From contig CALVAO010000004.1 in assembly GCA_944325515.1 (NCBI GenBank), forward strand, positions 1 to 64,000: a stretch of 64,000 nt of DNA, given 5' to 3'. The notes beneath the pieces were generated by a model that ran no database searches, was not told the origin of the DNA, and was given only the letters and a program-made list of their open reading frames with translations. Positions 12,770 to 57,782 of the stretch are shown here, in pieces. Position 1 is the stretch's first letter. Every line of letters begins with the position of its first letter. The stretch is from Candidatus Gastranaerophilales bacterium. GTDB lineage: Bacteria > Cyanobacteriota > Vampirovibrionia > Gastranaerophilales > Gastranaerophilaceae. Made by a program: the position numbers and the translations under genes.

Positions 12770-12834
12770 TATATAAAGTATTTTGGTAAACAAAAATTGC
12801 ATAAAAAAAGTAAAATTTTACAAAAGTTTACAAT
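12770..12834 (-). promoter_or_regulatory. HLR1-type composite promoter
   Basis: TTTACAAA-AG-TTTACAAT (12817-12834) fits the HLR1 consensus at every defined position. Read toward the minus-strand gene, AAATACTTTATATA follows 33 bp later (12770-12783). The same pair with the same spacing occurs at 57718-57782 and, with 34 bp, at 38137-38202. The box is 86 bp from the ATG at 12731. Confidence 0.7.
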
Positions 12835-25200: not shown

Positions 25201-26812
25201 TACTAAGTAATCTCTCCTCCTGCTTTATAATACTTGAATGAACTGCTTCCGTGTTTGTCACGCTATAATCTGAACGACAGTGTGCACCTCTGGACTCTTT
25301 TCTCAATATAGCTGCTCTTACAATTAAACTTGAAATTGTCAGCATATTACGGTATTCATATTCATCTTTATTAAGACATTTCTTATCTCTTTTGAACTCA
25401 TGTTTAAGCTTGTTGATTTCAACCTCAGCTCTTTTTAAATCAATTTCATTTCGTACAATACCAGCACAATCCCACATAATATCTTTTAAATGCTGCTTCA
25501 AATTATCTGTATCATAGTCTTCCTCGCTTATAGGATTTGAATAAACATTGATTGTATTTTTTATAGACTCATCAATTTTATGCGGTGTAGTAAGATTTGC
25601 AAAAGAAAGATAGTCTGCCAGTTCATATGCACAAACAACGCATTCCAGAAGAGAATTGCTTGCCAGCCGGTTAGCACCATGCAAGCCTGTGGAAGCACAT
25701 TCGCCTATTGCATATAAACCTTTGATATTTGTACAGCCTTCAACCGTAGCTTTTATACCGCCCATTGTATAATGTGCAGCGGGTGCAACCGGAATTGGAT
25801 TGTGAGAAATATCAATACCATTTTCTTTACACTTTCTAGAAATTGTAGGGAAACGTTCAAATAATTTCATTCCGTCAATCATTGAAGCATTTAAAAAGAC
25901 ATTAGAAGCATGCTCTTTATTCATTTCACTATAAATCGCACGAGTAACAATATCTCTCGGAGCCAGTTCACGCTTATCAGAATAACGATACATAAATTCT
26001 GCACCATTATTATTAATAAGCTTTGCACCTTCTCCTCTAACAGCTTCTGATATCAAAAATCTATTTTTATTTTTAGGACTTAAAGCCAGGGCAGTAGGAT
26101 GAAATTGTATAAACTCCATATCTTGAAGCTCTGCACCTGCATTATATGCCAGAGCCAACCCGTCCCCTGTAGCACCTTCCGGATTTGTTGTAAATTTATA
26201 TAATTGCCCGCAGCCTCCAGTTGCTAATATTAATGCAGAAGTATAAACAATTTCATGTTCACCAGTTAATTCATTATATAAAATGACACCTTTACACTCT
26301 TTTTCAGCATTAACCAAAAGTTCAACCGCCATTGCCTGTTCTGCTATATTAATATTTTCATCATTCATTACAGCCCGGCACAAAGCGTCTGTTATTCCTT
26401 TTCCTGTAGCATCGCCGCCGGAATGCAGAATTCTTTTGATACTGTGTGCTGCTTCTAATGTAAAATTTAAATTTCCCTTTGAATCCCTATCAAAATTAAC
26501 ACCGCAGTCAATTAAATCATTTATAACTTCATCAGATGCGCGCGAAATATATTCGGCAGTTCTTCTCTCCGATAACCCTGCACCGGCTTTAAGAGTATCT
26601 ATAACATGAGCTTCTACATTATCTGCGTGATTTTGATGAACAACACCTACTATGCCACCTTGAGCGTAACGTGAATTACTTTCACCTAACAATGATTTGG
26701 TAATTATTAGCAATCCTTCGGGTAAATTAATCTGCTGAGAGATTTTTAATGCTGCATACAATCCAGCAGCACCGCTTCCTACTACAACCACAGAATATTC
26801 GGAATATTTCAT
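25190..26812 (-). CDS. nadB: L-aspartate oxidase
   Basis: An FAD enzyme that oxidises L-aspartate to iminoaspartate, the first step of NAD synthesis. The N-terminal dinucleotide-binding motif VVVVGSGAAGLYAAL is at about residues 9-23. The succinate dehydrogenase/fumarate reductase-type flavoprotein core has SRYAQGGI, FIQFHPTAL and RELAPRDIVTRAI, and the helical C-terminal domain is intact. Length is 540 aa. I chose the ATG at 26812, with GAGGTG upstream, instead of a TTG four codons earlier. nadC follows with an 11-bp overlap. Confidence 0.96.
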   Translation of the reverse strand: MKYSEYSVVVVGSGAAGLYAALKISQQINLPEGLLIITKSLLGESNSRYAQGGIVGVVHQNHADNVEAHVIDTLKAGAGLSERRTAEYISRASDEVINDLIDCGVNFDRDSKGNLNFTLEAAHSIKRILHSGGDATGKGITDALCRAVMNDENINIAEQAMAVELLVNAEKECKGVILYNELTGEHEIVYTSALILATGGCGQLYKFTTNPEGATGDGLALAYNAGAELQDMEFIQFHPTALALSPKNKNRFLISEAVRGEGAKLINNNGAEFMYRYSDKRELAPRDIVTRAIYSEMNKEHASNVFLNASMIDGMKLFERFPTISRKCKENGIDISHNPIPVAPAAHYTMGGIKATVEGCTNIKGLYAIGECASTGLHGANRLASNSLLECVVCAYELADYLSFANLTTPHKIDESIKNTINVYSNPISEEDYDTDNLKQHLKDIMWDCAGIVRNEIDLKRAEVEINKLKHEFKRDKKCLNKDEYEYRNMLTISSLIVRAAILRKESRGAHCRSDYSVTNTEAVHSSIIKQEERLLSNVV

Positions 26813-37781: not shown

Positions 37782-38085
37782 TACAAAAGTTTTCTTCTTC
37801 TATAATCTGCTTAACAAGCACTGCAAAATTTATATCTATAAAATTAATTTTTTCTATTTGCTCTATAACAAAATCCTCACTTCCACAATTAGAACAATAG
37901 TGGAGCTGAGGGACTATTTTCCCGTTTTTTATAACTGCTCTTAACTTTACTCCGCAGCAGGCACATCTAGTTATATACCACTCATTCTTTATTAGTTTCC
38001 CGCAATCCGGACAGTAAGCTTTTTCACTCTCTGGAGAGACATGTTCATGAGTACATTTCTTTATAAAAAAGTTTATCAATGACAT
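37717..38085 (-). CDS. Zinc-ribbon protein (122 aa)
   Basis: Family not recognised. Three CxxC-type pairs (YCPDCGK, RCACCGV, YCSNCGS, between residues about 24 and 70) form zinc ribbons, as in small RNA-, DNA- or protein-binding adaptors. The remaining C-terminal half is helical. I chose the ATG at 38085, with GAAAGG upstream, over one 16 codons earlier. Its 3' end overlaps the end of spmB on the other strand by 65 bp. The HLR1-like box at 38137 lies upstream but faces the other way. Confidence 0.65.
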   Translation of the reverse strand: MSLINFFIKKCTHEHVSPESEKAYCPDCGKLIKNEWYITRCACCGVKLRAVIKNGKIVPQLHYCSNCGSEDFVIEQIEKINFIDINFAVLVKQIIEEENFCTTTRCWQEKTSLQPKLLVQSL

Positions 38086-38136
38086 TTCTTGACCTTTCTG
38101 GGGATTATTTAATAAATTTTTAAAACAAATCAACTT

Positions 38137-38202
38137 TTTGTAAAGATTTGTTACGAAACAATCTTTTTATATCAATTATTCAAAATACAAATACTTAATA
38201 TA
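38137..38202 (+). promoter_or_regulatory. HLR1-type composite promoter upstream of a small RNA
   Basis: Read on the minus strand, 38137-38154 is GTAACAAA-TC-TTTACAAA, one mismatch from HLR1. On the plus strand AAATACTTAATATA follows 34 bp later (38189-38202), the same composite as at 12770-12834 and 57718-57782. The next feature downstream is a terminator only about 90 bp away. Confidence 0.6.
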
Positions 38203-38204
38203 TA

Positions 38205-38292
38205 TGTAAGGATATTAAAAACTAATATACACATATAACATACTACACTTCACACATTAAAGTTTTTAGAGTCGATAAGACTCTTTTTTTTT
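38205..38292 (+). ncRNA. Candidate small RNA under HLR1-type control
   Basis: An HLR1-type promoter is followed within about 90 bp by an intrinsic terminator, with no ATG or plausible ORF between them. The predicted RNA is about 80-90 nt: an AU-rich, largely unpaired 5' part with ACACTTCACAC at 38245-38255, then the AGAGTC/GACTCT terminator hairpin. That unpaired motif is 9 of 11 identical to the one I recall for the cyanobacterial RNA Yfr1, which may be chance. The spacer 38086-38389 holds this unit plus the promoter of the 620-aa gene. It could instead be an attenuated leader. Confidence 0.45.
38268..38292 (+). terminator. Terminator with AGAGTC stem
   Basis: AGAGTC (38268-38273) pairs with GACTCT (38279-38284), then a run of T. 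No protein gene on the plus strand ends nearby: spmB stops 490 bp earlier. A near-identical hairpin lies at 56292-56316. Confidence 0.8.
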
Positions 38293-38350
38293 AAGAAATG
38301 TAACAAAATTAGAATAATTTAATTAAATAGAGCAAAAAATCAAATGCTAA

Positions 38351-38380
38351 TTACTTTATTTAATTATAAAATAAGATAAT
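38351..38380 (+). promoter_or_regulatory. Promoter of the 620-aa gene, near-leaderless
   Basis: TTACTT (38351-38356) and GATAAT (38375-38380) are 18 bp apart. The GTG start at 38390 is about 3 nt beyond the predicted +1. Confidence 0.45.
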
Positions 38381-38389
38381 ATAGGATTA

Positions 38390-42895: not shown

Positions 42896-44644
42896 ATGGA
42901 AAAAACTAACAAATATTATAGTATTATAGAAAACATTGTAAAGCATCACAGTAAATTCCCCGGCAATGAAGCTCTGCTAGATGCTATTATTGATGATGTT
43001 TATGCACATTCTGAAGTCATTATTAACTCGATAAATAACGAAAATGTCATAAATGCATATCTAGAAAAAGTTGTGTCTACATCAATGATTACTGTACCTA
43101 AAAAAAATAATATAAAACCAGCTCGTAAGACTTCGGAATTTGATATTACGGCAATTAAGCAGGTAGATTATACACCGGCAGATAAAACTCTTGTAGACAG
43201 AATGATAAACTCTAATACAGTTGACTCAAGTGTTTCTACCATCCAAGCAGCTTCTCAAAAAGATTTCAATGAAATTAGTGAAAATAATACACAAGCTGTA
43301 ATGCCTAAAGAAGAACAAAATTCCATAGCTGATGTTTTTGATATTGAAGATATCACACTGGAAGAAGAACCGTCACAAGATGAAGTGCAAAATCTTACTA
43401 CTGATAACGACACGCTTGATATAGAAGATATGCCTTTAGAAGAAGACACGGTTGTAATACAGGATGAAGAACAAAATCTTACTACTGATGACGACACGCT
43501 CAACATAGAAGATATACCTTTTGAAGAAGACACGGTTGTAATACAGAATGAAGAACAAAATCTTACTGCTGATAACGACACCCTTGACATAGAAGATACA
43601 CCTCTGGAAGAAGACACGGTAGCAATACAGGACGAAGTCCAAAATTTTACTACTAATGACGATACGCTTGATATAGAAAATATTACTCTGGAAGAAGACG
43701 CGGTTGTAACACAGGATGAAGAACAAAATCTTACTACTGATAACGACACGTTTGATATAGAAAATATTACTCTGGAAGAAGACGCGGTTGTAACACAGGA
43801 TGAAGAACAAAATCTTACTACTGATAACGACACGTTTGATATAGAAAATATTACTCTGGAAGAAGACGCGGTTGTAACACAGGATGAAGAACAAAATCTT
43901 ACTACTGATGATGACACGCTTAACATAGAAGATATACCTCTGGAAGAAGACGCGGCTGTAATACAGGATGAAGAACAAAATCTTACTACTGATGATGACA
44001 CGCTTGATATAGAAAATATCTCTCTGGAAGAAGAACCTGTTAATATAGAAGAAAATCAAGACCTTATTGCAGAAGACGAGAAAACAGATTTACAAGATAT
44101 TTCTCAAGAAGAAGCATCTTTTGAAATACAAGAAGACGTCCAGCCTCTTCAAGAAGTTTCTCTGCAAGAAGGTGATGGCTTAGATATTTCTGAAGATTTG
44201 GCGTTAGATGACAGTTTAGATTCAGAGGATTTACTAGAGAATGTGCTAGAAGAGGATAGCATTTCCATTGAGTTAGAACCAGCTTCTGAAGAACTTATAT
44301 TAGAAGATAATACTGAAGATTTTCAGAACAATTTAGATATTGATGAATCAAATATCGTTGATTTAGATATTGATACATCCGAAAAACAGACAGCTGAAAT
44401 TTCCGGCAAAAGTGATTTTTCTATGTTTCACTACCAGCCGGATACAAATACCGACGATATTGATGCAGATGAAATTATAAAAGAAATACTTGATTTAAAT
44501 CAAAAAAGACCCAACTTAAATATAATTAATGTATATAATTTAAAGTATAAAAATAAGCTTCCTGTATCAGATATTGCAACACAACTGGACATGAGTAACG
44601 ACAATGTCGTTGAGGCTTTAAATGAAATTATTTCAATAGTATAA
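42896..44644 (+). CDS. Acidic protein with eight 28-residue repeats and C-terminal helix-turn-helix-like end (582 aa)
   Basis: Family not recognised. Residues 1-85 are a helical N-terminal region. Residues 162-385 consist of eight tandem 28-residue units of the form DEEQNLTTDDDTLDIEDIPLEED, extremely acidic and probably extended. A further acidic stretch follows to about 520. The last 60 residues read KYKNKLPVSDIATQLDMSNDNVVEALNEI, a helix-turn-helix-like pattern similar to sigma-factor region 4 or a response-regulator HTH. No membrane segment or signal peptide is seen. The ribosome site is GAGAGAG. It is the middle gene of the operon. It may be a cytoplasmic adaptor or regulator whose repeat number can vary. 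Confidence 0.8.
   Translation: MEKTNKYYSIIENIVKHHSKFPGNEALLDAIIDDVYAHSEVIINSINNENVINAYLEKVVSTSMITVPKKNNIKPARKTSEFDITAIKQVDYTPADKTLVDRMINSNTVDSSVSTIQAASQKDFNEISENNTQAVMPKEEQNSIADVFDIEDITLEEEPSQDEVQNLTTDNDTLDIEDMPLEEDTVVIQDEEQNLTTDDDTLNIEDIPFEEDTVVIQNEEQNLTADNDTLDIEDTPLEEDTVAIQDEVQNFTTNDDTLDIENITLEEDAVVTQDEEQNLTTDNDTFDIENITLEEDAVVTQDEEQNLTTDNDTFDIENITLEEDAVVTQDEEQNLTTDDDTLNIEDIPLEEDAAVIQDEEQNLTTDDDTLDIENISLEEEPVNIEENQDLIAEDEKTDLQDISQEEASFEIQEDVQPLQEVSLQEGDGLDISEDLALDDSLDSEDLLENVLEEDSISIELEPASEELILEDNTEDFQNNLDIDESNIVDLDIDTSEKQTAEISGKSDFSMFHYQPDTNTDDIDADEIIKEILDLNQKRPNLNIINVYNLKYKNKLPVSDIATQLDMSNDNVVEALNEIISIV
43379..44050 (+). repeat. 84-bp tandem repeats, eight units, in-frame
   Basis: Eight units of exactly 84 bp encode the 28-residue repeats. 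Units five and six (43715-43798 and 43799-43882) are identical at the nucleotide level, which shows recent expansion or gene conversion. Other units differ by a few bases. Confidence 0.93.
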
Positions 44645-48249: not shown

Positions 48250-48267
48250 GTTACAAAAATTTACAAA
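48250..48267 (-). promoter_or_regulatory. HLR1 box, perfect match
   Basis: GTTACAAA-AA-TTTACAAA fits the HLR1 consensus at every position. It lies 73 bp upstream of the ATG at 48177, in the same orientation relative to its gene as the boxes at 12817 and 57718. A TATGTA -10-like box follows about 31 bp downstream. Confidence 0.65.
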
Positions 48268-56148: not shown

Positions 56149-56166
56149 TTAACAAAAATTTACAAA
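56149..56166 (-). promoter_or_regulatory. HLR1-like box, one mismatch
   Basis: TTAACAAA-AA-TTTACAAA differs from HLR1 at one base in the first half. It lies 80 bp upstream of the minus-strand ATG at 56069. A TAATAT -10-like box follows about 43 bp downstream. Confidence 0.5.
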
Positions 56167-57229: not shown

Positions 57230-57724
57230 GTGAATATTAATTCAGAAGAAAATAATAAAGTTCTAATATACACAGATGGGGCGTGCAGTGGTAATCCCGG
57301 CGCAGGGGGATATGGAACAATACTTGTTCATGTTGATAAAAACGGTACAAAACATGAAAAAGAATTGTCTGATGGTTTTAGCAATGTTACAAATAACCAG
57401 ATGGAACTTTTAGCAGTTATTATTGGTTTAGAAGCTCTTAAAAAACCTTGTGCTGTTACCTTGTATTCTGATAGTAAATACGTGGTTGATGCTTTCAACA
57501 ATCATTGGATAGAGAACTGGATACAAAAAGGGTGGAAAACAGCTGCTAAATCACCTGTTAAGAATGTTGAATTATGGCAAAGACTGCTTAAAGCTAAAGA
57601 ACCACACAATGTAGAATTTGTATGGGTTAAAGGTCATGCTGGACATGAATATAATGAAAGATGCGACACCCTGGCAGTTAACGCTTATAAAACAGGTAAT
57701 TTAAAAATCCTCAAAGAAATGTAA
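57230..57724 (+). CDS. rnhA: Ribonuclease HI
   Basis: Degrades the RNA strand of RNA-DNA hybrids. All catalytic acids are present: Asp in [11 protein letters not shown] (about 16), Glu in [10 protein letters not shown] (about 55), Asp in [11 protein letters not shown] (about 78) and Asp in NERCDTLA (about 147). The basic handle region [16 protein letters not shown] is also present, as in the Escherichia enzyme. Length is 164 aa. The start is GTG, 2 bp after the HEAT-like gene, with GGCG as a weak ribosome site; coupling is likely. An HLR1 box overlaps its stop codon. Confidence 0.96.
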
Positions 57725-57782
57725 AGTTTTGTAACAATAAATACTCTTTGTGAAATCATATTATATTTAAATACTTTATATA
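57718..57782 (+). promoter_or_regulatory. HLR1-type composite promoter, perfect box
   Basis: On the minus strand 57718-57735 reads GTTACAAA-AC-TTTACATT, a full match to HLR1. AAATACTTTATATA follows on the plus strand 33 bp later (57769-57782), then the ATG at 57814. The box overlaps the rnhA stop codon. Same composite as at 12770-12834. Confidence 0.7.

Follow-up and report, generated by a model that had tools for sequence, protein, structure and literature searches.

A candidate RpaB-controlled small RNA gene conserved across a family of non-photosynthetic Gastranaerophilales

The locus and its promoter

In the window, by which we mean the whole stretch of 64,000 nucleotides analysed here, a zinc-ribbon-like ORF and a 620-aa ORF diverge from an intergenic region with the following features.

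38086-38389: intergenic region between the divergent zinc-ribbon-like ORF and the 620-aa ORF
ATG near 38085 (minus strand): zinc-ribbon-like ORF, divergent
38137-38154 (plus strand): HLR1/RpaB-type direct repeat TTTGTAAA-GA-TTTGTTAC, that is TTTGTAAAGATTTGTTAC, matching WWTGTAAMNNWWTGTWAM exactly
38172-38205 (plus strand): core promoter block TCAATT ... AAATACTTAATATATAT, conserved across 30 genus genomes and part of the HLR1-box module
38189-38202: shared block AAATACTTAATATA, within the promoter block
38208-38292 (plus strand): predicted small RNA of about 80-85 nt, its 5' end placed from the promoter and its 3' end at the U tract
38208-38216 (plus strand): AAGGATATT element at the predicted 5' end, recognised by its conservation in the genus
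38242-38255 (plus strand): single-stranded core ACUACACUUCACAC, a putative seed, recognised by its invariance and predicted unpairing
38245-38255: ACACTTCACAC, resembling the Yfr1 motif, with 9 of 11 positions as published
38268-38292 (plus strand): Rho-independent terminator AGAGUC-GAUAA-GACUCU-U tract, from hairpin prediction and pairing across genera
From 38390 (plus strand): 620-aa ORF, starting 98 nt past the terminator

The initial annotation had described an HLR1-like box, a shared block and an intrinsic terminator with no ORF in between, and all of these elements were found where it had placed them; ORFs of 60 aa or longer are absent between 38134 and 38389. The terminator (AGAGTC-gataa-GACTCT and a T tract) forms a 6-bp hairpin, for which 0.4 occurrences were expected, and the predicted RNA (38206-38294) folds with a z-score of -1.9. 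The stretch around ACUACACUUCACAC is G-poor on the plus strand and the first 13 nt of this core are predicted to be unpaired with a probability of 0.95. Viewed in a single genome these features are weak, and it is their conservation that turns them into strong ones.

The published HLR1 consensus is KTTACAWW-N2-KTTACAWW (PMC13421787), and the pattern WWTGTAAMNNWWTGTWAM corresponds to its reverse complement with one extra degeneracy in the second half-site. HLR1-type boxes with at most one mismatch occur nine times in the window against 1.2 expected, a number that no shuffle reached, and the shared block AAATACTTAATATA is present there in 13 copies at up to two mismatches (4.6 expected). The combined module, in which a box is followed after about 35 nt by AAATACTT, occurs six times in the window's own genome and is absent from the reversed control; its other copies in this genome precede protein genes. 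For distinct homologs of the locus, the best box matches at least 17 of 18 positions in 99 of 133 cases, as against 0.6% of shuffles, and TCAATT/CAATT and ACTT..TATATAT are nearly invariant among 30 genus genomes. The locus carries an HLR1 direct repeat with a 10-bp period near a promoter, the arrangement expected of a member of the RpaB/HLR1 regulon.

RpaB is a light and redox regulator of photosynthesis which has been retained in gut cyanobacteria that lack photosynthesis. The window's genome encodes an OmpR-family regulator (G000:C10:5091-5825) whose score against NF045944, the RpaB equivalog, is 355.8 bits (cut-off 330), and the identification rests on this NCBIfam model. The presence of this regulator and the conservation of the box in homologs support the earlier assignment of an HLR1-type promoter, and the small RNA gene is very probably RpaB-controlled. 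Relative to the start inferred near 38208-38212, the box lies at about -72 to -55. Cyanobacterial HLR1 elements located at -66 to -45 are activating (PMC13421787) and, because the box lies close to that position, RpaB is likelier to act on this promoter as an activator.

The precedent cited in the initial annotation, control of the small RNA PsrR1 of Synechocystis by RpaB, is confirmed (PMC13421787). Both are small RNA genes with an RpaB/HLR1-type promoter and PsrR1 acts in trans, as this RNA would; however, the sequences differ and PsrR1 serves photosynthesis genes, which are missing in the Gastranaerophilales lineage. In about 60% of the window's genome, 20 genes carry RpaB-type promoters, which suggests the presence of an RpaB regulon, and the promoter module of box, spacing of about 35 nt and AAATACTT provides an outline of its candidate members. 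Among these the small RNA represents a concrete, conserved and single-copy putative output of RpaB in non-photosynthetic gut cyanobacteria.

Further HLR1-type boxes in the window include those at 12817-12834 (minus strand), with a shared block at 12770-12783 (minus strand), and at 57718-57735 (plus strand), with a block at 57769-57782 (plus strand), as well as boxes at 48250-48267 and 56149-56166, both on the minus strand. Two of these boxes have AAATACTT about 35 nt further on, and the boxes precede protein genes that yielded no Pfam match.

Conservation, genomic context and RNA structure

When the intergenic region was compared with 97 relatives by blastn, most same-genus genomes were matched, and the genus matches stop at query positions 206-207, equivalent to 38291-38292 in the window and to the last T of the terminator; nothing aligns past the T tract in same-genus sequences. 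Among 30 same-genus genomes the core ACUACACUUCACAC...AGAGUC-GACUCU-U8 is nearly invariant. The element ACUACACUUCACAC itself is invariant in 30 of 30 sequences collected by blastn and is also kept in the other genera found with a covariance model, and neither ACUACACUUCACACAU nor the terminator stem varies among the 30 oriented same-genus sequences. These sequences do differ in the length and sequence of the linker that joins promoter and motif, and AAGGATATT is kept in most of them, with one clade carrying AAGATATT/AAGGTATT. The genus core lacks a start codon and the length changes of the linker are not multiples of three, and therefore a small ORF was rejected as an explanation for the conserved RNA.

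The genes to the right of the 30 loci fall into about 20 unrelated groups, some of them on the opposite strand, and a frequent left neighbour is a Gate-domain gene pair together with the zinc-ribbon ORF. This bears on an alternative already raised in the initial annotation, that transcription starting at the HLR1 promoter yields an attenuated leader whose terminator governs read-through into the 620-aa gene. The 620-aa gene does share the strand of the RNA and begins only 98 nt beyond it, and at 8 of the 30 loci a homolog of this gene comes next, but at the remaining loci an unrelated gene or one on the opposite strand lies there, the similarity breaks off at the U tract before the 620-aa gene is reached, and no conserved alternative anti-terminator pairing was seen. 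The variability of the genes that follow already largely refutes the attenuator, which we consider most improbable. Because the downstream gene differs between genomes, and with the terminator forming the boundary of conservation, the locus is better read as a stand-alone small RNA gene, in agreement with the original proposal of a transcript of about 80-90 nt.

A covariance model built on the core recognised it in every same-genus genome but G025 (48 of 49, E-values below 1e-9) and gave weaker but clear matches elsewhere in the family, in the genera g44, g50 and g57; marginal scores in g39 and g58 were confirmed on inspection. In 16 genera (g1, g31, g33-g35, g37-g42, g44, g50, g57, g58 and g63) the full layout of promoter, motif and terminator could be read, and it was found nowhere outside one Gastranaerophilales family. 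Searches that demanded the exact motif, and in which its invariance is therefore given by construction, located a single copy of the 13-mer ACTACACTTCACA in each of about 130 family genomes and almost none in the reversed control or in other families (two outside matches, in genomes of 7-8 Mb), and, in a scan of 84,980 species genomes, produced 103 stretches, of which the named ones belong to Gastranaerophilales or Melainabacteria MAGs and the others to gut MAGs, some evidently mis-named. The unbiased evidence for conservation is provided by the blastn search, the comparison of 30 sequences and the covariance-model search. Matches to the 13-mer in g43, g47 and g52 were dismissed as chance occurrences, the layout being missing there, and a search of phages and viral contigs yielded no match to the RNA. 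On the sequence evidence this is very probably a real, previously undescribed and family-wide small RNA gene, present in at least 16 genera.

A few loci show additional features. One of them (L006) has, on the minus strand and some 135 nt downstream from the first, a second copy of the core that is degenerate, and another (L065, genome G360) has two core copies of which the second is nearly intact. In one g50 genome a Guanidine-I riboswitch (L072:888-983, minus strand) adjoins the RNA locus.

The homologs occur in two structural types. The short type, present in the window's genus and in g44, consists of a AAGGATATT-like 5' end, an unpaired CA-rich stretch and the terminator. The long type of most other genera, about 124 nt in length, begins with AACACGAGGA, which is followed by a 9-10 bp hairpin with a GAGGA loop, CACACACUACACUUCACAC, a second hairpin starting with GAGGAAU, and the terminator. 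The 13-mer is predicted to be unpaired in both types, with mean probabilities of 0.86 and 0.84 compared with 0.95 in the window. The terminator is paired in 15 of 15 cross-genus sequences (100% of cells), with one covarying pair (U-A/C-G). The window also shows a weak 5' hairpin, which lacks conservation within the genus.

The ACGAGGA repeats of the long type prompted us to consider a CsrA sponge, resembling CsrB and RsmZ, that would act through GGA motifs. Homologs from other genera carry three (AC)GAGGA motifs, one of them in a hairpin loop, and this repetition of GAGGA in loops or single strands recalls the known sponges; CsrA is encoded in the genome and genus of the window, as it is in genera carrying the short type. 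However, no CsrA match was found in the inspected genomes, mostly 99% complete, of the multi-GAGGA genera g31, g33, g34, g35, g37, g38, g39 and g40, and the window's genus, which has CsrA, shows at most one GGA in the RNA, lost in one clade. Since the multi-GAGGA genera are without CsrA, a sponge is refuted for the long type, and the distribution of CsrA leaves this explanation with scarcely any probability. CsrA is patchy in the family and absent from many genera; in the window's genome csrA lies near 25545 of G000:C18 (L413), just downstream of a gene with a FliW-looking C-terminus.

Relationship to Yfr1

Yfr1 is characterised by the motif ACUCCUCACAC, two stem-loops, a length of 54-69 nt and, in most genomes, guaB upstream and/or trxA downstream (PMC2190773), and mutation of the motif centre abolishes or strongly weakens its pairing (PMC6778093, PMC6974561). 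The initial annotation had pointed to a match of 9 in 11 positions with this motif, and the count is correct against the published sequence. The two RNAs are also alike in being short, in carrying an unpaired CA-rich conserved motif followed by a terminator hairpin, and in occurring as one copy per genome with very wide conservation; moreover, a 5' hairpin is present in other genera. Nevertheless, kinship with Yfr1 did not stand up to closer comparison. The Yfr1 covariance model RF01116, the check proposed at the outset, gave no match on 38086-38389 at E-values up to 10 and none above the cut-off across 194 Vampirovibrionia genomes, yet it detected a picocyanobacterial locus (L273) used as positive control at 69.2 bits. 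The RNA was likewise unmatched in Rfam at both gathering and relaxed thresholds. In the window ACACUUCACAC stands in place of ACUCCUCACAC, and all homologs that were read have an altered version (CUUCACA) of the ultraconserved UCCU centre, on which the pairing of Yfr1 depends. Two stem-loops separated by 16-20 unpaired nt are lacking, the terminator hairpin being the only one conserved in the genus. If it starts where the promoter predicts, the RNA would measure about 80-85 nt, against 54-69 nt for Yfr1. Neither guaB upstream nor trxA downstream adjoins the locus in the window, and the downstream genes of relatives are variable.

Identity with Yfr1 is rejected on the covariance model, the motif, the 5' hairpin and the neighbours, and the resemblance would be functional at most. 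On these grounds it appears very unlikely that the RNA is a diverged ortholog of Yfr1 going back to an ancestor shared by the photosynthetic and non-photosynthetic Cyanobacteriota. In such a scenario one ancestral small RNA, older than oxygenic photosynthesis, would have given rise to both RNAs; in the gut lineage its seed would have drifted from UCCUCAC to CUUCAC while the promoter came under RpaB control. We regard this as equally improbable.

Putative mode of action

We consider it probable that 38137-38292 is the gene for a small RNA whose family is new and specific to this lineage of non-photosynthetic Gastranaerophilales, controlled by RpaB and acting through a trans-pairing element. RpaB would bind the HLR1-type repeat, which precedes the inferred start by about 55-72 nt, and thereby control an untranslated RNA of about 80-85 nt ending at the terminator. 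The RNA would present the unpaired ACUACACUUCACA, kept free beside the terminator hairpin, and would most likely pair in trans with a few RNAs. On the best reading, its action would run through the single-stranded CACUUCACA element. As far as the searched literature shows, this would be the first small RNA family proposed for Gastranaerophilales.

Searches for targets produced no general signal. With 1111 translation-start regions, covering 60% of the window's genome, the core was predicted to pair more weakly than shuffled seeds, and for conserved targets in two genomes (392 ortholog pairs) 21 were observed against 38 +/- 19, with no excess. Enrichment of genes with RpaB-type promoters among the targets was not significant, and no exact 12-nt complement of the core recurs in the genus besides the gene itself. 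Single target candidates, for example a leader in L082, are anecdotes.

As these pairing tests found no targets, the ACUACACUUCACA element might instead bind a protein partner, through which the RNA would act without base pairing. The extreme conservation of the element, for which a complementary target set went undetected, favours this possibility, but no candidate protein has emerged and pairing with a few specific RNAs would look alike. We judge a protein partner rather unlikely, ranking second to a few specific RNA partners, which appear to be the most likely mode.

Other terminator-ended or repeat-containing elements were encountered in the course of the analysis. Genus g49 (L294-L315) carries a different terminator-ended RNA, often in two copies per genome, with the sequence TATATTCATACTTACCTTACTTACTACCTTTACTAACACACGAGGAAATTG..., which has the ACACGAGG element and the promoter style in common with the RNA described here. 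In three same-genus genomes (L316, L317 and L318, minus strand) repeated ACACGAGGA and a terminator come after a small gene whose product is predicted to be ribbon-helix-helix-like. In the window, a 582-aa ORF at 42896-44644 encodes a unit of about 26 residues (DEEQNLTTD-DTLDIENI...) that is repeated several times in tandem.
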